Shown here in pieces: positions 23,002 to 31,698 of a DNA stretch of 47,739 nt. The notes below the pieces were generated by a model. That model saw only the letters and a list, made by a program, of their open reading frames with translations. It made no database searches and was not told where the DNA came from. The translations under genes and the position numbers were made by a program. Origin of the DNA: Clostridiaceae bacterium (GTDB lineage: Bacteria > Bacillota > Clostridia > Oscillospirales > Acutalibacteraceae). The stretch's first letter is position 1; the number at the start of each line of letters is the position of its first letter. The stretch is taken from contig JAEEHB010000049.1 in assembly GCA_016280595.1 (NCBI GenBank), forward strand, positions 1-47,739, in the 5' to 3' direction.

Positions 23002-23034
23002 AAGCACCTGTCGGCTGACAGGTGCTTGTTTTTT
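23002..23034. terminator. Bidirectional terminator between yraN and the CNNM/CBS gene
   Basis: AAGCACCTGTC-GGCT-GACAGGTGCTT is a perfect 11-bp stem. On the plus strand it is followed by GTTTTTTATT; on the minus strand by TTCTGTTTCAG. Confidence 0.85.
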
Positions 23035-24385
23035 ATTCTTCCTCTTCCGGCTCTTCAACCGGCTTTATTTCAACCTTGATGTCGTCTATCCGTCTGTCGT
23101 CAAGCGAGAGAATGGTGAAGTGCAGGTTTTCATAGTCAATCTCAATCGGCAGTTCGGTTTCCTCGTCCGGCAGGTAGCCGAGAGTGCTTATCAGGAAGCC
23201 CGCGAGGGTGTCATAGTCACCCTCCGGCAGATTAACTCCGGTAAGTTCCTCTATCTCGTCAACCGAAGTCGTGCCGTCAACATTGAATATGTTTTCGCTG
23301 AGTTTTATTATATCTTCTTCCTCATCGTCGTCATATTCGTCTCTTATGTTTCCGACGATTGATTCGAGCACGTCCTCTATCGTGACTATGCCCGCCGTGC
23401 CGCCGTATTCGTCAACAACCACCGCAAACTGCGTGCGGCTTTCGTTCATCTCTTTGAAGATATCAAAGCACGCCTGTGTTTCGGCAACATAGAGGGGTTT
23501 TCGCATTACGCTCTCAATGGTGGTTTCCTTCGGGATTTTCTGCCCTACAAAATGGAGCAGATCCTTCGCGTAGAGCACGCCTACTATATTATCCGGGTCG
23601 CCCTTGTAAACGGGTATTCTCGAGTAGCCGTTTTCAACGCATATATCCGCCACTTCTTCAACCGAGCGCTCGATTTCTATGGCAACCATCTCGGTGCGGT
23701 GAGTCATTATGTCGCCCGCGTTGAGGTCGTCAAACTCAAAGATGTTGTCAATCATTTCCGCCTGGCTGTTTTCGATAACTCCGGTTTCTTCGCCGACATC
23801 GACCATCATGCGGATTTCCTCTTCCGTCACATTTTCCTCGTCGGCATTCGGGTCAAAGCCGAAAAGACGCACCGCGCCGTTTGTGGAAAGGGAGAGGAAT
23901 TTTACAAACGGTCTTGTGATTTTCGCAAAAGCGAGGAGAATACCCACCACTTTGTAACTCACCTTTTCGGGTATCTGCATCGCGATTCTCTTGGGGGCGA
24001 GTTCACCCAGAACAAGTGAAAAATAAGCGATGATAAAGGTGATGACAATTACTGAGAGCGCGGAAATAACGCCCACGGGGACCGGATTGCCCGGTATCGC
24101 GGCAATTTTTGCAGTAAGCAGGGTAGCGAAATTCTGCGACGCGGATGCGGAAGTCAGGAAGCCCGCCAGCGTGACGCCTATCTGTATGGTTGAGAGAAAG
24201 GCGCTGGAGTTTTCCGTCAGTTTCACTATCTGCTTCGCTTTTTTGTCGCCCTCCTCGGCAAGATGCTTTATCTTGTTGTCATTGAGGGAAATAATCGCTA
24301 TTTCGCTCATCGCGAAAAAGGCGTTGATGATAATCAGCAAAAGAAGCAGAAGAAGTTTCAATGCGATTTGCAGGCCCGTGCCCAT
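23033..24385 (-). CDS. CNNM/TlyC-type membrane protein with CBS pair and CorC domain
   Basis: A 450-residue membrane protein: an N-terminal CNNM (DUF21) membrane domain with about four helices (residues 1-190, SEIAIISLNDNKIKHLAEEGD), a CBS pair (about 210-330, IMTHRTEMVAIEI...FAVVVDEYGGTAGIVTIED), and a C-terminal CorC/HlyC transporter-associated domain (about 345-435, INLPEGDYDTLAGFLISTLG type). Relatives are Mg2+ transport or export proteins; the old name 'hemolysin' is historical. AAGGAGTG precedes ATG 24385. It starts 38 bp after the GH130 gene and may be the last gene of the operon from 30082. Confidence 0.93.
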   Translation of the reverse strand: MGTGLQIALKLLLLLLLIIINAFFAMSEIAIISLNDNKIKHLAEEGDKKAKQIVKLTENSSAFLSTIQIGVTLAGFLTSASASQNFATLLTAKIAAIPGNPVPVGVISALSVIVITFIIAYFSLVLGELAPKRIAMQIPEKVSYKVVGILLAFAKITRPFVKFLSLSTNGAVRLFGFDPNADEENVTEEEIRMMVDVGEETGVIENSQAEMIDNIFEFDDLNAGDIMTHRTEMVAIEIERSVEEVADICVENGYSRIPVYKGDPDNIVGVLYAKDLLHFVGQKIPKETTIESVMRKPLYVAETQACFDIFKEMNESRTQFAVVVDEYGGTAGIVTIEDVLESIVGNIRDEYDDDEEEDIIKLSENIFNVDGTTSVDEIEELTGVNLPEGDYDTLAGFLISTLGYLPDEETELPIEIDYENLHFTILSLDDRRIDDIKVEIKPVEEPEEEE

Positions 24386-24423: not shown

Positions 24424-25380
24424 TTATATGCAAAGTGAAATAAGGTCATTTATATCGGCATACGCGAGGCACTCGACGGTGTCGGACGCGCCGTAATAGA
24501 TTTTTACTTCGCCGTCTTCGGCAATCATGCCGCCCGGGAAAATAACATCTTTGCGAAATCCGTTTTCGGTTTCAAAATCCCTGTCGCAGACTATCAGCGG
24601 TTTATCGTAGATTCCCCTGACTTGTGACGGGTTTTCCGGGTCGAGCAGCATTACGCCCGCCCTGTAAATTTTCTGCCACTTATCTTCCCAGCCGTTTTTA
24701 CCCCTTGAGGTGTCAAGTTCAACGGCGTGAAAGAGGGTGAGCCAGCCTTCCGAAGTTTTTACGGGAGGGGCGGCAGGCCCGATTTTGTCGTTTGCAAACG
24801 GAATATCCTCAACGCCCGCGACAAGCCTGTGATTGCCCCAATATTTGAGGTCGGGGCTCTCGCACACCCACATATCAAAGCAGTCCTTCCCCCTTGAATA
24901 AACGGGCATCGGGCGTTCAAGCATCACAAAATTGCCGTTTATCTTTTCGGGGAAAAGCGCAAGGTTGCGGTTATCCGGCGGCAGGAGGGAAAGCACTTCA
25001 ATCTCGGTGAAATTGTGAAGTTTCCCGACTCCGCCCATAAGCCCGTGACGGGTGTCGCAGGCAAAGCAGATATATATTTCGCCTTCAATAACCGTAAGGC
25101 GCGGGTCATACACTCTCTTGATTTCGGGGCTGTCGGGGTATGTGAGCGTGTTTTCGCTCACCTCCCATTTTACGCCGTCGCTGCTGAAAGCGAGGCCGAG
25201 ACTCGTGCCGGCGAATTTACAGCCGTAAAAGTCGCCGTAATCGTTGCGGAAAACCATAACGTATTTTCCGTCAAAGCGGCACACGCCCGCGTTGAAAACA
25301 AGCGATGCGTCATACGGTACATCGTCCTTCGTGAGGACGGGTCTGTCAAGTTTTCTGATAACGGAAGATGATATTTCCAT
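24424..25380 (-). CDS. GH130 family glycosidase/phosphorylase
   Basis: A 318-residue five-bladed propeller enzyme of family GH130, which contains beta-mannoside phosphorylases (releasing mannose-1-P) and some hydrolases. Typical stretches: VFNAGVCRFDGKYVMVFR (about 28-45), RVYDPRLTVIEGEIYICF (about 90-107), LPPDNRNLALFPEKINGNFVMLERP (about 133-157), IGPAAPPVKTSEGWLTLFH and DVIFPGGMIAEDGEVKIYYGASD. The start ATG 25380 lies 1 bp after the stop of the PfkB gene; a longer reading from 25434 would overlap it and lacks homology. The exact linkage is not readable. It places mannoside breakdown in the LarA-homologue operon. Confidence 0.87.
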   Translation of the reverse strand: MEISSSVIRKLDRPVLTKDDVPYDASLVFNAGVCRFDGKYVMVFRNDYGDFYGCKFAGTSLGLAFSSDGVKWEVSENTLTYPDSPEIKRVYDPRLTVIEGEIYICFACDTRHGLMGGVGKLHNFTEIEVLSLLPPDNRNLALFPEKINGNFVMLERPMPVYSRGKDCFDMWVCESPDLKYWGNHRLVAGVEDIPFANDKIGPAAPPVKTSEGWLTLFHAVELDTSRGKNGWEDKWQKIYRAGVMLLDPENPSQVRGIYDKPLIVCDRDFETENGFRKDVIFPGGMIAEDGEVKIYYGASDTVECLAYADINDLISLCI

Positions 25381-25381
25381 C

Positions 25382-26458
25382 TTATCTCTTAACTCTGGCG
25401 TTTCCGCTCCACACGGACCACACCATATCTTCATCCGCAGGCTGTGCGTAGTCGGTGAGGAAAGTGGTTGCGAGCGCGCCGCTTGCCCAGCCGAACTGAA
25501 TCCACTTTTCGCTCTCCCAGCCCTTTATTACCGCATAGAGAAGGCCGCCCACAAAGCCGTCTCCTCCGCCTATGCGGTCAAGCACTCTGATGGTGCGCGG
25601 CTCAACGATATGCCACTCGTCGCCCGCGAGCATAATTGCTCCCCACTTGTGCTCATTTGCGTTAACAACCTCTCTGAGGGTGGTGGCAAACACGCCCGCG
25701 TTGGGGTATGCCTGTTTTACTCTGCCTATCATTTCCTTGAAGGACTCAATCTTTGATGCGAGGTCTTTGCCGCCCGCTTCGGGGCCTTTGATGCCGAGGC
25801 AGAGCTGGAAGTCCTCTTCGTTGCCTACAAGGATATCCGCGCTGCCCGCTATCTCGGAAAAGATTTCGGAAAGCTCCTGCTCCCTGCCCTTCCAGAAAGT
25901 GGCTCTGTAGTTAAGGTCAAATGAAATCACGGTGCCGTATTTCTTTGCTGCTCTCGCGATTTCGAGGCAGAATCTGCCCGTTTCGGGCGAAAGCGCGGCG
26001 ATAAGACCGGAAAGATGAAGCACGGCAACACCTTCGGTGCCGAATATGCGGTCAACATCAAAGTCCGCGATGTTGAGTGTTTTACCCACTTCACCGGCTC
26101 TGTCGTTTTCTACTCTGGGGCCTCTTGAGCCCGCGCCGCTGTCGGCAATATTGAACTGATGGCGGTAGCCCCAGGGACCGCCCTTGTCTACATCCTTGCC
26201 TTCAAAAACCATACCTCTTGCTCTGAGGTCCTGCTTGATGAAAGAGGCAATCTGGCTGTCCTTCACAAAGGTGGTGAGCACCTTTACGGGCAGACCGAGA
26301 AATGATGAAACGGAGGCAACATTGGTTTCGGCGGAAGTTGCCTGCATTCTGAAAAGATTGCTTGAGGCGACAGTCTGACCCTCTGCGGGGCAGATACGCA
26401 CGCCCATACTTGTGGGCACTACCATAGCCCAGGTGTAATTGTCTTTTACCTTAATCAT
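25382..26458 (-). CDS. PfkB family sugar or sugar-acid kinase
   Basis: A 358-residue ribokinase-fold kinase. The C-terminal signature DRIGGGDGFVGGLLYAV (about residues 290-306) carries the catalytic Asp and anion hole. SAETNVASVSSFLGLPVKVLTTFVKD (about 42-67) is the substrate-lid region, and VISFDLNYRATFW (about 175-187) and ADILVGNEEDF are typical of 2-keto-3-deoxygluconate kinases and related fructokinases. The substrate is not certain: KDG, gluconate or a ketose are all possible. It lies 12 bp after gnd and 1 bp before the GH130 gene, so it is clearly in the same operon. Confidence 0.88.
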   Translation of the reverse strand: MIKVKDNYTWAMVVPTSMGVRICPAEGQTVASSNLFRMQATSAETNVASVSSFLGLPVKVLTTFVKDSQIASFIKQDLRARGMVFEGKDVDKGGPWGYRHQFNIADSGAGSRGPRVENDRAGEVGKTLNIADFDVDRIFGTEGVAVLHLSGLIAALSPETGRFCLEIARAAKKYGTVISFDLNYRATFWKGREQELSEIFSEIAGSADILVGNEEDFQLCLGIKGPEAGGKDLASKIESFKEMIGRVKQAYPNAGVFATTLREVVNANEHKWGAIMLAGDEWHIVEPRTIRVLDRIGGGDGFVGGLLYAVIKGWESEKWIQFGWASGALATTFLTDYAQPADEDMVWSVWSGNARVKR

Positions 26459-26470
26459 TACGTCTCCCCC

Positions 26471-27922
26471 TTATACGGTATACTGTGTGGCGGCGGTGTC
26501 TCCGCCTTCGCCTGTCCAGTTGGTGTGGAAGAATTCGCCTCTGGGTCTGTCTGTCCTCTCGTATGTGTGAGCGCCGAAATAGTCTCTCTGCGCCTGCAGG
26601 AGATTTGCGGGAAGGTTTGCGCAGCGGTAGCCGTCAAAATATCCGAGCGCCGCGGTCATCGCGGGCAAAGGAATACCATTTGTAAGCGCGGCGGCGCACA
26701 CTCTTCTCCAGCCTGCCTGAGCGGATTCCATAATGCCTTTGAAATACGGGTCAAGCAGCAGATTTTCGAGCGCGGGGTTATTGTCATAAGCCTCTTTGAT
26801 TTTGCCGAGGAATACGCTTCTGATTATACAGCCGCCTCTCCACATAAGGGCGATGCCGCCGTAGTTGAGATTCCAGCCGTAGGTCTTCGCGGCGGAGCGC
26901 ATAAGGGTGTAGCCCTGCGCGTAGGAAACTATCTTTGACGCGAAGAGGGCGTTTTTGATGTCGTTTATAAACTGTGCGCGGTCTCCCTCAAACACGGGGG
27001 CGGGGCCCGAAAGCACCTTTGAGGCTTTCACTCTCTCTTCTTTCATTGAGGAAAGGCAGCGTGAAAATACCGCTTCGCCGATGAGCGTGAGGGGTATGCC
27101 TTCGTCAAGGGCGGCTATGCCTGTCCATTTGCCGGTGCCCTTCTGGCCTGCGGTGTCAAGGATTTTGTTGACTATCGGCTCACCGTCGGTGTCTTTATAG
27201 GCGAGAATGTCTCTGGTGATTTCAATAAGATAACTGTCAAGTTCTTCGGTATTCCACTTCGCGAATACTTCGTGCATTTCGTCCGCGCTCATACCGAGCA
27301 GGTCTCTCATAAGCTGATACGCTTCGCATATAAGCTGCATATCGCCGTACTCTATGCCGTTATGCACCATCTTTACAAAGTGGCCCGCGCCGTTTTCGCC
27401 TACCCAGTCACAGCAGGGTGTGCCGTCTTCAACCTTGGCGCAGATGCTCTGGAATATGGGCTTTACGCTCTCCCACGCGGCGGGTGAGCCGCCGGGCATC
27501 ATGCTCGGGCCTTTGAGCGCGCCCTCTTCGCCGCCGGATACGCCCGTGCCGATATAGAGAAGGCCTTTGCTCTCAACATAAGCGGTGCGCCTTGCGGTGT
27601 CAGGGAAGTGGCTGTTGCCGCCGTCAATGATTATATCGCCCTGCTCCATTAGAGGAATGAGCTGCTCAATCATATCGTCGACCGCCTGACCTGCCTTTAT
27701 CATCATCATAACCTTGCGGGGTTTTTCGAGTGACGAAACAAGTTCTTCAAGGGAGTATGTTCCGACAATGTTTTTGCCCTTTGCTCTGCCGTTTACAAAA
27801 TTTTCAACCTTCTGCGAGGTTCTGTTGTAAACCGATACGGTGAAACCCTTGCTCTCCATATTCATAACAAGGTTTTCGCCCATAACGGCAAGTCCTATGA
27901 GGCCGATATCGGATTTTTTCAT
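26471..27922 (-). CDS. gnd: 6-phosphogluconate dehydrogenase, decarboxylating
   Basis: A 483-residue long-form enzyme that oxidises 6-phosphogluconate to ribulose-5-phosphate and CO2 with NADP+. GLIGLAVMGENLVMNM is the Rossmann motif, then YNRTSQK, GTGVSGGEEGA (about 128-138), KMVHNGIEYGDMQL with the catalytic Lys (about 183-196), and GGCIIRSVFLGKI near residue 370. The length matches the E. coli/animal type rather than the short 300-residue type. Its ATG overlaps the PHP gene's stop by four bases. No zwf or pgl gene is present in the window, so the 6-phosphogluconate may come from gluconate (inference). Confidence 0.97.
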   Translation of the reverse strand: MKKSDIGLIGLAVMGENLVMNMESKGFTVSVYNRTSQKVENFVNGRAKGKNIVGTYSLEELVSSLEKPRKVMMMIKAGQAVDDMIEQLIPLMEQGDIIIDGGNSHFPDTARRTAYVESKGLLYIGTGVSGGEEGALKGPSMMPGGSPAAWESVKPIFQSICAKVEDGTPCCDWVGENGAGHFVKMVHNGIEYGDMQLICEAYQLMRDLLGMSADEMHEVFAKWNTEELDSYLIEITRDILAYKDTDGEPIVNKILDTAGQKGTGKWTGIAALDEGIPLTLIGEAVFSRCLSSMKEERVKASKVLSGPAPVFEGDRAQFINDIKNALFASKIVSYAQGYTLMRSAAKTYGWNLNYGGIALMWRGGCIIRSVFLGKIKEAYDNNPALENLLLDPYFKGIMESAQAGWRRVCAAALTNGIPLPAMTAALGYFDGYRCANLPANLLQAQRDYFGAHTYERTDRPRGEFFHTNWTGEGGDTAATQYTV

Positions 27923-28770
27923 GACATATTCTCCTTTGCTGTTTTTATATTTTCAAGAACGGAATAGGGTATCCTCAGATTGCCCGTGCCCGTCCCTATG
28001 CTTATGTGAGGCTTCATCGCGGCGTGGAAATCTGTGCCGCCGGAAATGAGCAGACCCATATCTTTTGCCATCTGCTGATATTTTGCCTGCATTTCGGGAG
28101 TGTATTCGGTGTAGTAGCCTTCCACTCCGCTCAGACCGTGCTCTTTGAGAGTGCCGAGAAACTTTTTGAGCGGCTCATCGTCCATTTTTATAAGATGCAG
28201 GTGGGCAACGAAACTGAGCCCTCCGCACTCGTGTATGAGTTCAACCGTCTCCTCCGCCTTAAGGCGCTGTACTCCGCAGTAGGCGGGTTTCCCGTTTTCG
28301 AGGTAGAGTTTGAAGCCCTCTTTTACGCTCGAAGTGTAGCCCTTGTCCATAAGGATTCTCGCGAAGTGCGCCCTGCCGATGATACCGTTGGGGGCGATTG
28401 CCCTCGCCTCTTCCATAGTTACATCAAAGTCGAGTTTGTTGAGCAGGCGGCAGGTTTCCTCGTTTCTGTAATTCCTGGTCTGCTTGCACTCCTCGAGAAT
28501 GCGGATGAGTTTGGGATTGTCGATATCGAGATAATAGGCGAGTATGTGCGTTTCGGTGTCCGACTGCACGGAAAACTCGATTGCAGGCACCACTTCAATG
28601 CCGTTTTCTTTACCTCTCGCCATGGCCTCTTTTACGCCGTCGGTTGTATCGTGGTCCGAAAGAGCCATAGCCGCGAGCCCCGCTCTTTTTGCCTCGTCAA
28701 CAACCTGCGAAGGTGTCATCGAGCCGTCGGATTTGATTGAATGCGTGTGTAAATCAATATACTTTTCCAT
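27919..28770 (-). CDS. PHP domain phosphoesterase
   Basis: A 283-residue protein of the TrpH/YciV-type PHP family; known members hydrolyse 3',5'-nucleoside bisphosphates or short oligoribonucleotides. Metal ligands are visible: DLHTHSIKSDG (His7, His9 and Asp14 region), ALSDHDTTDG (about 38-47), PAIEFSV with Glu (about 62) and GGTDFHAA near residue 255. It starts 17 bp after the LarA-homologue stop and overlaps gnd by four bases, so it is firmly in the operon. Its specific substrate is unknown; a sugar-phosphate or sugar-acid phosphate is conceivable given the neighbours. Confidence 0.88.
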   Translation of the reverse strand: MEKYIDLHTHSIKSDGSMTPSQVVDEAKRAGLAAMALSDHDTTDGVKEAMARGKENGIEVVPAIEFSVQSDTETHILAYYLDIDNPKLIRILEECKQTRNYRNEETCRLLNKLDFDVTMEEARAIAPNGIIGRAHFARILMDKGYTSSVKEGFKLYLENGKPAYCGVQRLKAEETVELIHECGGLSFVAHLHLIKMDDEPLKKFLGTLKEHGLSGVEGYYTEYTPEMQAKYQQMAKDMGLLISGGTDFHAAMKPHISIGTGTGNLRIPYSVLENIKTAKENMS

Positions 28771-28786
28771 TTTACTTTTGCCTTTG

Positions 28787-30046
28787 TCAGTTGTTTTTTA
28801 CGCTCCACAGACCGAGAGCCGGGTTGCTGATGTAAAACACCTTTTCGCCGTCAATCTCGTGGAAACCGTCTGTCAGTTTTGCGGGGTCGTATTTCTCTGC
28901 CGCTTCGTCATACGGGATGTATGAAAAGCCCGCTCCCTCAACCTCTTCGCGGGTGAGCCTGCGTGTGCAGTATGTGATATTGAATCTGCCGTCGGACGAG
29001 CCGTGAATAAGGTGGGCGGCAACGGAAAGATTTGCCCTGAGGTCCTCGTTTTCCTCAACGAGTTTCAGTATGTTCTCTCTGCCGATATAGCCGTATTTTC
29101 TTATCAGGCGGTCATTTTCGTCGTCCTCGCCGAATTTGCGCACTTCGGGGGCGAGAATAATCAGTTCGCCGCCCTGCGCCATAGCCATTCTCGTTCTGTA
29201 AATCGCCTTGTTGCCGAGCCAGGTGCTCTTGAATTCTCTCGGATCAAGATAGACGACAGCCTTTTTGAAAGGCTCGTCAACGAAGGTGAGGTTAATCTCT
29301 CTGCTGAGCGCAACCGCGCCCTCAAACGAATCTCTCTTTTCGCCGATGAATGCGCCGTGAATACGGGTTTCGTCCCCTTCGTTTGTGGTAACGGTGAGCA
29401 CGAAAAGCAGCGGCACATCTTTAAGGAAATTCTCGTGAGCGTAATCGAAAACCTTGCGCACGGGCGAATAATCCCTGCCCATAATTCTTTCCATGCCGTA
29501 AAACGCGCCGAGCATATGAGAGGAGTTTATCATATTGCTGCCGCCGCATCCGACAAAGATGTTTTTGGAGTAATTCGCCATACCGACAACTTCGTGCGGC
29601 ACGACCTGACCGATTGAAATAATCAGGTCGTATGAGGGGTCGACTATACGGCGGTTAACTTCAACGTCGATTTTGTCTTTTACGAGCCCCTCCGAAACGG
29701 AGGATACAAATTCGCCGGGCACTTCACCGATTTTGACAACATCGGTGCGCCAGTTGTGGACTATGATACTGTCAAACGGCACGCCCTCGCCGAAAAACGC
29801 CGTGCACTCCTCGCGCGTCATAGGCTCGTGAGTGCCCAGAGCCGGCATAATATCCACCTGACAGGTGTCCTTGAGCATATCATAGTAATAAGCGGTTATT
29901 TTGCCTGCGCCCGAGTACATCCTGGTATAATCGGGCGGAAGGAGAAGCACCTTTTTAAGGCATCTGCCCTCAAGCGAAGCGGCGAGCGCCTCTTTTAACT
30001 GAGAATCGGAAATATACGGTTCGTTTTTAATAATCAAAGGAGTCAT
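28787..30046 (-). CDS. LarA-superfamily nickel-pincer hydroxyacid racemase/epimerase
   Basis: A 419-residue LarA homologue. LarA uses a covalently bound nickel-pincer nucleotide to racemise lactate; the wider superfamily includes epimerases of longer hydroxyacids, among them D-gluconate 2-epimerase. Cofactor residues are conserved with the spacing of L. plantarum LarA as I recall it: DYTR at 39-42, GTHEP at 71-75, His151, Lys161 (ten residues later, as His174-Lys184) and His177 (sixteen later, as His200). So it is probably active. ATG 30046 is chosen because AAAGGCGG lies upstream and the promoter (30082-30110) would overlap an upstream start at 30091. No larB, larC or larE is in the window. 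It is the first gene of the operon with PHP, gnd, PfkB kinase and GH130. Confidence 0.85.
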   Translation of the reverse strand: MTPLIIKNEPYISDSQLKEALAASLEGRCLKKVLLLPPDYTRMYSGAGKITAYYYDMLKDTCQVDIMPALGTHEPMTREECTAFFGEGVPFDSIIVHNWRTDVVKIGEVPGEFVSSVSEGLVKDKIDVEVNRRIVDPSYDLIISIGQVVPHEVVGMANYSKNIFVGCGGSNMINSSHMLGAFYGMERIMGRDYSPVRKVFDYAHENFLKDVPLLFVLTVTTNEGDETRIHGAFIGEKRDSFEGAVALSREINLTFVDEPFKKAVVYLDPREFKSTWLGNKAIYRTRMAMAQGGELIILAPEVRKFGEDDENDRLIRKYGYIGRENILKLVEENEDLRANLSVAAHLIHGSSDGRFNITYCTRRLTREEVEGAGFSYIPYDEAAEKYDPAKLTDGFHEIDGEKVFYISNPALGLWSVKNN

Positions 30047-30081
30047 TCCGCTACCGCCTTTCCTGAAAAATAATCTATAAT

Positions 30082-30110
30082 ATTTTATCACCTGCAGGGC
30101 GAAAATACAA
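30082..30110 (-). promoter_or_regulatory. Promoter of the LarA-homologue operon
   Basis: TTGTAT, 17-nt spacer, TAAAAT on the minus strand, with an extended GTGA before the -10; the transcript would start near 30075. It also decides the start codon of the gene. Confidence 0.7.
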
Positions 30111-30177: not shown

Positions 30178-30231
30178 CATATCGGATAAAATGTTACGCT
30201 TTTAAGCGCATACCGGAAAGGAGGTAACCGT

Positions 30232-31698
30232 ATGGCACTCATAAAAGCAATTCTTTCCTTCATAACCGCGATTCTATTCGGCTTTTCGCTGATGCCCGGC
30301 CCGGTGATTCTTACGGACGGCGAAGACCCCGATGCCTCAAAATCGCTTGCGCAGGCTCCCGCGCTTCTTTACGCCGCGGCGCCTCTTTCAAATGTAAGCA
30401 AAACTTCCTTCGGCAGTATGGCTCACGACACCGTCAACGCCTCCGACTGCCGCGGTGATTATTACTATATCTGCGGTTCGGCAGGCAATGCGAACGGTGA
30501 CTTCACTGTCTCAGGCTCTTTCGCAAAGCCTTTCGGCTTCATAAAGCGCGTCAGTCTGACGGGCGAAACCCTTGCCGAAACTTATGTTACCGACAGTGTT
30601 CAGTCCGTTTCGCTCACGGATATATGCGTGCTCAGAAACGGCAACGCCGCGGTGTGCGGTTATCTCTATTCAACAGGTAACGACAATCTCCCCTGCTCCG
30701 CTTTTGTCGCTGTGTATGATACGCAGTTAAACCTTTTGTGGAGAGAAGATATCGAGTGCTTTGACAGCGTTTTCCTCAATACAATTTCCACCACTTCAAA
30801 CGGCTTTGTGACGGGCGGCGAAACCTCCGCCGTTGACGGCATATTTGAAGGCACGGATTTCTTCGGCTCGCCCGGAGCATTCTTTATGAGATATAAAATT
30901 ACCGCAGATTCGGACACGGGCGAAACAACAGGCACCGTTATGTGGATGAAGAATCTGCACGGCGAGGGCACAAGCAAAGTGACCGACATTTCGGTTGACT
31001 CAAACAACAATGTTTTCGTGTGCATTTCAACCAACTCAACCACCGGCAACTACTCCGCGTTTGACGGCCTTATCCCCGGCTCGTTTGACAATGTGCTGCT
31101 AAAATACAGCGGCACGGGAATTTTCCAGTGGAGTTATGTGCTCGCGTCCGCAGGCAAAGACAGTTTCGACTGCGTTGCCGCCGACGCATCGGGCGGCTGC
31201 CTTGTGGGCGGATATTCCTACAGAGCCGGAGCGTCATCGGGCGACGACCTCGGAGGCACGCTTTCGGGCATAAGGTACCTCGGCGGCTATGACGGCTTCG
31301 TTTTCAAGATTTCGTCCTCCGGCGCGCTTTCGTGGTACAGGAGAATCGCGGGCACGAAAAACGATATGGTGCTCAGCATCGCGAAATTCGGCAGTAATTT
31401 TGCCGTGGGCGGCTACTCCGCTTCGGACAATTACGAGTTTGCCGAAAACAAGGGCGAAACCGACGGCTTTGTTGAAATCATCACTTCCTCGGGTGACAAA
31501 GGCGAAATGATTAACCTCGGCGGCTCCGGAAACGACAGGGTAAATACCGTATCCGCTTCCGGCAGCACACTGCTTGCCGCGGGCATCTCCGTTTCACAGG
31601 ACGAATGGTTTGACGGGATGAATCAATATGCCTATACCACTTACACCTATGACCTTCCGCAGGATTCAAGCGACTGCTTCACAGCATTTTATCAATAA
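30232..31698 (+). CDS. Exported propeller-like repeat protein
   Basis: A 488-residue protein with a hydrophobic N-terminus (about residues 5-27, AILSFITAILFGFSLMPGPVIL), so exported or anchored. The rest consists of blade-like repeats of about 45-60 residues with motifs such as 'GDYYYICGSAG', 'GNAAVCGYLYSTG', 'NGFVTGGETSA', 'NNNVFVCISTNS', 'GGCLVGGYSYRAG' and 'FAVGGYSASD', each followed by 'DGFVxKISSSGALxWYRR'. This matches the SBBP-like beta-propeller style. No catalytic motif. GGAGG precedes ATG 30232. The lipoprotein gene starts about 20 bp downstream, so the two probably form an operon at the cell surface. Function unknown. Confidence 0.8.
   Translation: MALIKAILSFITAILFGFSLMPGPVILTDGEDPDASKSLAQAPALLYAAAPLSNVSKTSFGSMAHDTVNASDCRGDYYYICGSAGNANGDFTVSGSFAKPFGFIKRVSLTGETLAETYVTDSVQSVSLTDICVLRNGNAAVCGYLYSTGNDNLPCSAFVAVYDTQLNLLWREDIECFDSVFLNTISTTSNGFVTGGETSAVDGIFEGTDFFGSPGAFFMRYKITADSDTGETTGTVMWMKNLHGEGTSKVTDISVDSNNNVFVCISTNSTTGNYSAFDGLIPGSFDNVLLKYSGTGIFQWSYVLASAGKDSFDCVAADASGGCLVGGYSYRAGASSGDDLGGTLSGIRYLGGYDGFVFKISSSGALSWYRRIAGTKNDMVLSIAKFGSNFAVGGYSASDNYEFAENKGETDGFVEIITSSGDKGEMINLGGSGNDRVNTVSASGSTLLAAGISVSQDEWFDGMNQYAYTTYTYDLPQDSSDCFTAFYQ

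Follow-up and report, generated by a model that had tools for sequence, protein, structure and literature searches.

We analyzed a 47,739-nucleotide stretch of DNA (hereafter, the window) from a Clostridiaceae bacterium (assembly GCA_016280595.1, contig JAEEHB010000049.1, our contig C59), in which five open reading frames (ORFs) are arrayed head to tail between 30046 and 24424, all on the minus strand. They encode, in this order, a homologue of the nickel-pincer racemase LarA, a PHP-domain phosphoesterase, a 6-phosphogluconate dehydrogenase (Gnd), a PfkB-family kinase and a glycoside hydrolase family 130 (GH130) enzyme. Our results indicate that this operon probably encodes the later steps of a hexuronate pathway, with a nickel-pincer enzyme in the role of the mannonate dehydratase UxuA. 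It is very likely that LarA, PfkB and Gnd form a branch leading from mannonate to ribulose-5-phosphate, whichever of the first two acts first, and the epimerase probably precedes the kinase.

In the proposed route, UxaC would isomerize uronates to fructuronate, with galacturonate entering through tagaturonate and UxaE in some relatives, and a reductase of the short-chain dehydrogenase/reductase (SDR) type would convert fructuronate to D-mannonate; such a reductase is presumably present in the window's own genome. LarA would then invert C2 of D-mannonate to give D-gluconate, by hydride transfer mediated by the nickel-pincer nucleotide (NPN), PfkB would phosphorylate D-gluconate to 6-phosphogluconate, and Gnd would decarboxylate the latter to ribulose-5-phosphate, giving back a reducing equivalent. 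Gene content, linkage, active-site residues, cofactor genes, co-occurrence and mutual exclusion were directly observed; from these we infer all of the substrates, the order of epimerase and then kinase, and the direction of flux.

The LarA homologue (28787–30046, minus strand; 419 residues from the ATG at 30046, with an alternative GTG start possible at 30091) scored 638.5 bits against the NCBIfam model NF052594, "nickel-dependent putative hexonate epimerase" (cut-off 500), and contains the Lar_N domain PF09861 (52.8 bits, cut-off 23.3). On the other hand, it did not reach the cut-offs of the lactate and malate racemase models (Ni_dep_LarA and the MAR equivalog; 29.7, 58.7 and 40.3 bits against 460, 500 and 462, respectively), the best malate racemase model giving 58.7 bits. 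We read the short name of the hexonate model, NPN_18_hexonate, as denoting group 18 of the LarA homologues (LarAH). The only sequence match in the Protein Data Bank at E ≤ 0.001 was 4nar from Thermotoga maritima, the protein shown to be GntE2 (PMC7583248, available in part). An AlphaFold2 model of the LarA homologue (predicted local distance difference test score 89.7) also placed 4nar first, with a template modeling (TM) score of 0.81 by query length, compared with 0.62–0.70 for the lactate racemases and 0.51–0.53 for malate racemase, values that are a rough guide because the compared structures differ in openness. Family models and structure, on which the placement is based, both put the protein with the hexonate epimerases and not with the lactate or malate racemases, in keeping with the sugar-acid epimerase suggested in a preliminary description made from the sequence alone.

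The same description had reported the five-gene operon, the LarA motifs DYTR (residues 39–42) and GTHEP (71–75), and His151, Lys161 and His177; the ORF positions, the families and the residues were all confirmed, and Lys280 is also present. In an alignment of 57 rows, three of which are duplicates, D39, R42, H73, H151, K161, H177 and K280 were invariant, as was the hexonate signature formed by E152-V153 and W276. By the 4nar alignment and the order of the motifs, the first seven correspond to D72, R75, H108, H174, K184, H200 and K298, which bind NPN or act in catalysis in LarA, and the available text of the same source describes an E-V/S loop after the catalytic His, together with a Trp in helix 11, as the signature of groups 18–20 (PMC7583248). 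The window protein is a predicted D-mannonate/D-gluconate 2-epimerase.

The genes for the nickel cofactor, larB, larC and larE, had been expected elsewhere in the genome, and this proved correct: contig C60 carries a LarC1 model match of 191.6 bits (cut-off 90), flanked by ORFs that are LarB-like and LarE-like by eye, with no model score, in the order larB-larC-larE. The same genome also holds a second set, PfkB-Gnd-Cof-type HAD phosphatase-LarA, on the ~4 kb contig C13 (L075, 1–3974). Its proteins are 61% (LarA), 69% (PfkB) and 80% (Gnd) identical to those of the window, and the contig ends truncate both LarA and PfkB. LarA, Gnd and PfkB are thus linked twice within one genome. The HAD phosphatase of this contig could be a candidate sugar-acid phosphatase.

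Could the linkage have arisen by chance? When GTDB-representative genomes were scanned once with only the LarA protein as query, neighbors being disregarded, 46 loci were obtained (numbered with L; genomes are numbered with G), the closest named relatives being metagenome-assembled genomes labelled Clostridiaceae, Ruminococcaceae, Oscillospiraceae or Clostridia, many of them from rumen or gut by isolate name. Within 7 kb of LarA, Gnd was present in 36 of the 46 loci, PfkB in 25, PHP in 15, SDR in 9, UxaC in 6, aldose 1-epimerase in 4 and UxaE in 3; UxaC, UxaE or an SDR fructuronate reductase lay near LarA in 13. Twenty-three loci extend 4 kb or more to both sides of LarA; of these, 20 contain Gnd and 16 contain PfkB. 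Since the loci were fetched by LarA only, the frequency of Gnd shows that the linkage is not due to chance. Furthermore, the gene order varies (LarA-Gnd-PfkB, PfkB-Gnd-LarA, and SDR-Gnd-LarA-UxaC, the last in L052, L056 and L071), which argues for function over inherited order alone.

These counts were made with tblastn at identity thresholds that we set (Gnd 50%, PfkB 55%, PHP 45%, SDR 45%, UxaC 45%, UxaE 40%, GH130 50%, aldose epimerase 35%), as greedy ORF picking missed some genes, for example LarA in L059 and the Gnd and PfkB genes lying under antisense ORFs; L071 has an SDR by ORF clustering that falls below the tblastn threshold. One representative each of UxaC and UxaE matched its own Pfam model. 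A beta-glucuronidase-like gene follows LarA in L055 (285 bits, below the model cut-off of 544). In L057, L064, L065 and L066, an aldose 1-epimerase-like gene follows LarA, together with SDR and Gnd and with no recognized kinase. An FGGY kinase beside uxaC in G000 and G015 was considered as a gluconokinase and ruled out, as it is a glycerol kinase.

A side-by-side comparison of loci shows where the LarA genes stand. In relatives that carry UxuA and lack LarA (L109–L116), uxuA, SDR and kdgA occur together in seven of the eight loci, five having uxaC directly before them, and the SDR between uxuA and kdgA in the seven is of the same type as the LarA-linked SDR (57–67% identical). LarA and Gnd occupy the place of UxuA and the 2-keto-3-deoxygluconate (KDG) genes.

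LarA and UxuA also excluded each other in the gene content of 200 genomes sampled from the window's family. The NF052594 cut-off was passed by a LarA in 11 genomes, spanning 9 of the 135 genera, and Gnd (PF00393) in 11, the two sets being identical. The two co-occur even on separate long contigs (G087, G174); in G069 and others, the separation may stem from a contig break. UxaC was found in 113 genomes, including all 11 with LarA (G096 has only a 134-residue piece), and UxuA above the cut-off in 98, of which G010, G027 and G122 have weak or partial matches. No UxuA above the cut-off was found in the 11 LarA genomes (G015 has a 20-bit match below it). Among genomes with UxaC, UxuA was present in 98 of 102 without LarA versus none of 11 with LarA (Fisher's exact test, 2e-12, which ignores kinship). 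Both types occur in four genera (g1, g15, g43 and g56: G145 versus G000/G015, G144 versus G014, G043 versus G162, and G056 versus G174), which suggests that the switch of route happened more than once. The operon PfkB, at E ≤ 1e-60, was present in nine genomes, all within the 11; of the other two, G014 has a 74-residue piece at a contig edge (84% identical) and G013 has nothing above 34%. KDPG (2-keto-3-deoxy-6-phosphogluconate) aldolase, above the cut-off in 110 of the 200, was tried as a discriminator of the routes and rejected, as it occurs in 7 of the 11 LarA genomes. Four genomes (G051, G062, G066 and G153) carry UxaC with neither UxuA nor LarA-18 found, owing to assembly gaps or a third route.

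A wider LarA-positive set of 57 entries, including three duplicate pairs, comprised 54 genomes. Of these, 44 had UxaC, 43 had a long PfkB match (64% identity or more; that of G207 in two pieces), and only 2 had glucose-6-phosphate dehydrogenase; 6-phosphogluconate would, as a result, hardly come from glucose-6-phosphate in most of them. Single absences in draft genomes are weak evidence, and quality ratings exist for only 11 of the 54. In the six genomes with a rated completeness of 90% or more and contamination of 5% or less, UxaC was present in all, and glucose-6-phosphate dehydrogenase and UxuA above the cut-off were found in none, two of them having UxuA matches of 18 and 20 bits below it. 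Taken together, the family score, the linkage and the genome profile support the route suggested in the preliminary description, by which a hexonate C2-epimerase would feed gluconate to 6-phosphogluconate and on through Gnd to ribulose-5-phosphate.

Several observations weigh against the proposed route. In 9 of the 46 loci, none of Gnd, PfkB, SDR, UxaC and UxaE was seen near LarA (some loci end close by), the kinase lying elsewhere in the genome for six of them. UxuA above the cut-off accompanies LarA in 4 of the 54 genomes, UxaC was not found in 10 (draft assemblies), and no long PfkB match was found in 11, including G014. The genomes without such a match include loci carrying SDR and Gnd (L047, L052, L057 and L064–L066), and no other gluconokinase was recognized in the genes scanned of L047, L057 and L064, which were scanned in part. 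The KDPG aldolase of the seven LarA genomes indicates that some keep part of the KDG route. The SDR reductase adjoins uxaC in only 1 of 10 family loci (L079–L088; 10 neighbor genes scanned). The scarcity of glucose-6-phosphate dehydrogenase, which was counted in the LarA-positive set only, may be a trait of the whole family. Finally, the window's own metagenome-assembled genome (1.83 Mb in 65 contigs) is rated 78% complete.

What is the substrate of the kinase? The operon PfkB (25382–26458, minus strand) reached no equivalog cut-off, KdgK included, and its nearest solved sequences and folds are the KDG kinases 2afb, 4gm6 and 1v19. It also retains features of KDG kinases, namely D119-R120 and a D-N-R..W stretch around 181–189. 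Were it an ordinary KDG kinase, LarA would work in the gluconate-to-mannonate direction, supplying dehydration and an Entner-Doudoroff-type aldolase, a possibility with which the KDPG aldolase of 7 of the 11 LarA genomes is in keeping. However, with no UxuA above the cut-off in any of the 11, these genomes have no known route from mannonate to KDG, and Gnd would be left without a role. Several LarA genomes, moreover, carry a separate KDG-type PfkB: G221 and G222 have both gene sets on different contigs, each set with its own kinase, the KDG-type one in UxuA-aldolase-kinase order.

The kinase tree points in the same direction. In a tree of 47 rows, 31 operon kinases formed a clade of their own (support 100/100), apart from both KDG-type groups (nine rows of one type and six of another), although a long branch separates this clade and the tool warned that long branches meet at that join. 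Five of the six rows labelled "UXUA" are in uxuA-kdgA-kdgK order (the LarA-negative L112–L114 and the double-pathway L117 and L118). The label "ALD" came from the fetch list, and adjacency to a PF01081 aldolase was borne out only for L099–L101 and also for L102, which had been assigned to the 340-residue type by length before the tree was built. Furthermore, where both KDG groups have Gly-Gly-Gly ahead of Glu44, the operon clade has Thr-Ser-Ala. It is very improbable, in our estimation, that the operon kinase is an ordinary KDG kinase with LarA running toward mannonate. The observations are in keeping with a kinase that acts on another sugar acid, most simply gluconate, with mannonate as the alternative; the prediction of a gluconokinase comes solely from the position of the enzyme in the pathway.

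Could the kinase act before the epimerase? PfkB would then phosphorylate D-mannonate, and LarA would epimerize 6-phosphomannonate to 6-phosphogluconate, leaving the net pathway the same. The gene data are compatible with either order, and the motif of the operon PfkB, unlike that of KDG kinases, suits this alternative as well. If it were true, LarA would be, to our knowledge, the first nickel-pincer enzyme to act on a phosphorylated sugar acid, and the pair would give genes to a kind of reaction known in Lactobacillus suebicus from measurement only. Extracts of that species contain a mannonate kinase and, following it, a 6-phosphomannonate 2-epimerase, with genes yet to be assigned (PMC6978723, available in part). 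On the other hand, the hexonate LarA homologues assayed in the accessible parts of PMC7583248 and PMC11770544 use free mannonate or gluconate, and the epimerase candidate of L. suebicus is an aldose-1-epimerase-like protein, the term "lactate racemase" having no mention in the available portion of PMC6978723. We regard the kinase-first order as rather unlikely and are equally doubtful of its wider form, in which the PfkB clade would be mannonate kinases and the group 18 LarA proteins 6-phosphomannonate 2-epimerases that displaced UxuA within several gut and rumen genera.

Our preferred reading, epimerization of free D-mannonate to D-gluconate, also assumes a particular pair of C2 epimers. LarA could instead act on another pair, such as altronate/allonate or idonate/gulonate, with Gnd and the kinase serving that acid. 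Desguin 2020 did not settle which hexonate is native to group 18 and, for group 19, questioned mannonate on account of a high KM (PMC7583248). However, the linked SDR, represented by that of L037 only, scored 447 bits against NF006132, "D-mannonate oxidoreductase" (cut-off 281), the missing enzyme is UxuA, the consumer of mannonate, and Gnd makes 6-phosphogluconate the obvious end product. Another pair of substrates is, on this evidence, improbable.

The preliminary description had derived the substrate from GH130 (24424–25434, minus strand), which would free mannose-derived units to be turned into mannonate for the operon. In the window, the gene directly follows PfkB, and its product best matches mannoside phosphorylases. 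However, only 5 of the 46 loci had GH130 near LarA, all of them with a LarA 76–89% identical to that of the window; no GH130 was found in the vicinity of LarA in the remaining 41, some of which break off close by. The operon contains no mannose-oxidizing enzyme, and a phosphorylase would yield mannose-1-phosphate, not mannonate. The recurring outer neighbors are SDR, UxaC and UxaE, and the genome profile points to hexuronates. A mannoside source is, therefore, the least credible of the possibilities, and the most likely input is a uronate. Of the gene order whose recurrence was to be surveyed, the LarA-Gnd-PfkB linkage recurs, and GH130 is probably a local passenger of the operon.

How does the proposed route compare with known systems? 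Rodionova 2012 reportedly proposed a gluconate epimerase pathway in T. maritima, and the GntK of this organism is presumably of the FGGY type. Its operon is gnd-uxaRED-gntEK (PMC3750489), and the activity of its GntE2 (LarAH20) was shown by Desguin 2020 (PMC7583248), both sources being available in part. As in the window, a nickel-pincer gluconate 2-epimerase is linked to Gnd, a gluconate kinase and hexuronate genes. The two differ in the LarA group (18 in the window, 20 in T. maritima) and in the kinase (PfkB versus an annotated GntK); moreover, T. maritima keeps kdgA-kdgK-uxuB-uxuA (PMC3750489), whereas UxuA is missing from the 11 LarA genomes of the window's family. For group 18, a hexonate epimerase was proposed by Desguin 2020 (PMC7583248), and the window LarA shares with it the NF052594 score above the cut-off and the E-V loop and Trp signature of groups 18–20. 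In the available text, this function is a hypothesis, with no mention found of a swap with UxuA, the Gnd profile or the kinase partner; nor was an assay of group 18 found in the accessible parts of PMC7583248, PMC11770544, PMC12611868 and PMC11851776.

L. suebicus resembles our proposal in taking galacturonate-derived mannonate to 6-phosphogluconate and Gnd without UxuA, and its isomerase-phosphoketolase pathway is redox-neutral to ribulose-5-phosphate; it differs in that phosphorylation comes before epimerization, the genes having yet to be named (PMC6978723, as available). The canonical UxaC-UxuB-UxuA-KdgK-KdgA route shares UxaC and the same kind of SDR reductase with the proposed one, in which LarA, PfkB and Gnd would replace UxuA, KdgK and KdgA. 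The earlier statement that no described pathway has this gene set goes too far, the T. maritima operon and the group 18 proposal being precedents for the idea. A pathway of group 18 LarA, PfkB and Gnd was not found in the literature searched, which covers few subscription papers. The family name and the pathway idea were already known; what is new within that literature is the exchange with UxuA, the precise agreement of the LarA and Gnd profiles and the pairing with PfkB.

Uronic acids of pectin, xylan side chains and host glucuronides are important foods in the rumen and gut. These results suggest that, in some Oscillospiraceae-like Clostridia, the UxuA/KDG branch gives way to a nickel-dependent, redox-neutral pathway leading to pentose phosphates and that the two uronate routes exchange within genera. 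If this is true, a LarA group lacking assays and a new clade of PfkB kinases would gain functions, the presence of Gnd without glucose-6-phosphate dehydrogenase would be explained, and uronate use in these bacteria would depend on nickel. The occurrence of LarA-18 and Gnd in exactly the same 11 genomes of the 200 sampled also offers a rule for annotation.

The remaining features of the window are as follows. The PHP-domain phosphoesterase (PF02811; 27919–28770, minus strand), an accessory and not universal member of the operon, matched nucleoside bisphosphatase/RNase models far below their cut-offs, and its gene occurs twice in succession in L040 and L073. Gnd (26471–27922, minus strand) is of the decarboxylating, NADP-dependent type (TIGR00873, 783 bits, cut-off 427). 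A gap of 16 bp separates LarA from PHP and one of 12 bp separates Gnd from PfkB, and PHP and Gnd overlap by 4 bp. GH130 starts 1 bp past the PfkB stop if the ATG at 25380 is used; the longest ORF, from the ATG at 25434, overlaps PfkB by 53 bp. Scans returned nine promoter-like sites (expected 5.1 ± 2.3), one of them upstream of LarA at 30205–30176, and seven terminator-like sites (expected 8.2 ± 3.5), neither of which was used as evidence. Upstream, at 30232–31698, lies a divergent gene for a 488-residue protein with no Pfam match and weak similarity to SBBP beta-propellers, homologues of which (31–54% identity) occupy the same place in L028, L034, L036, L038 and L051. After the operon, at 23033–24385, comes a CNNM/CorC-type CBS transporter, which is present in 6 of the 46 loci, in relatives whose LarA is 76–89% identical.

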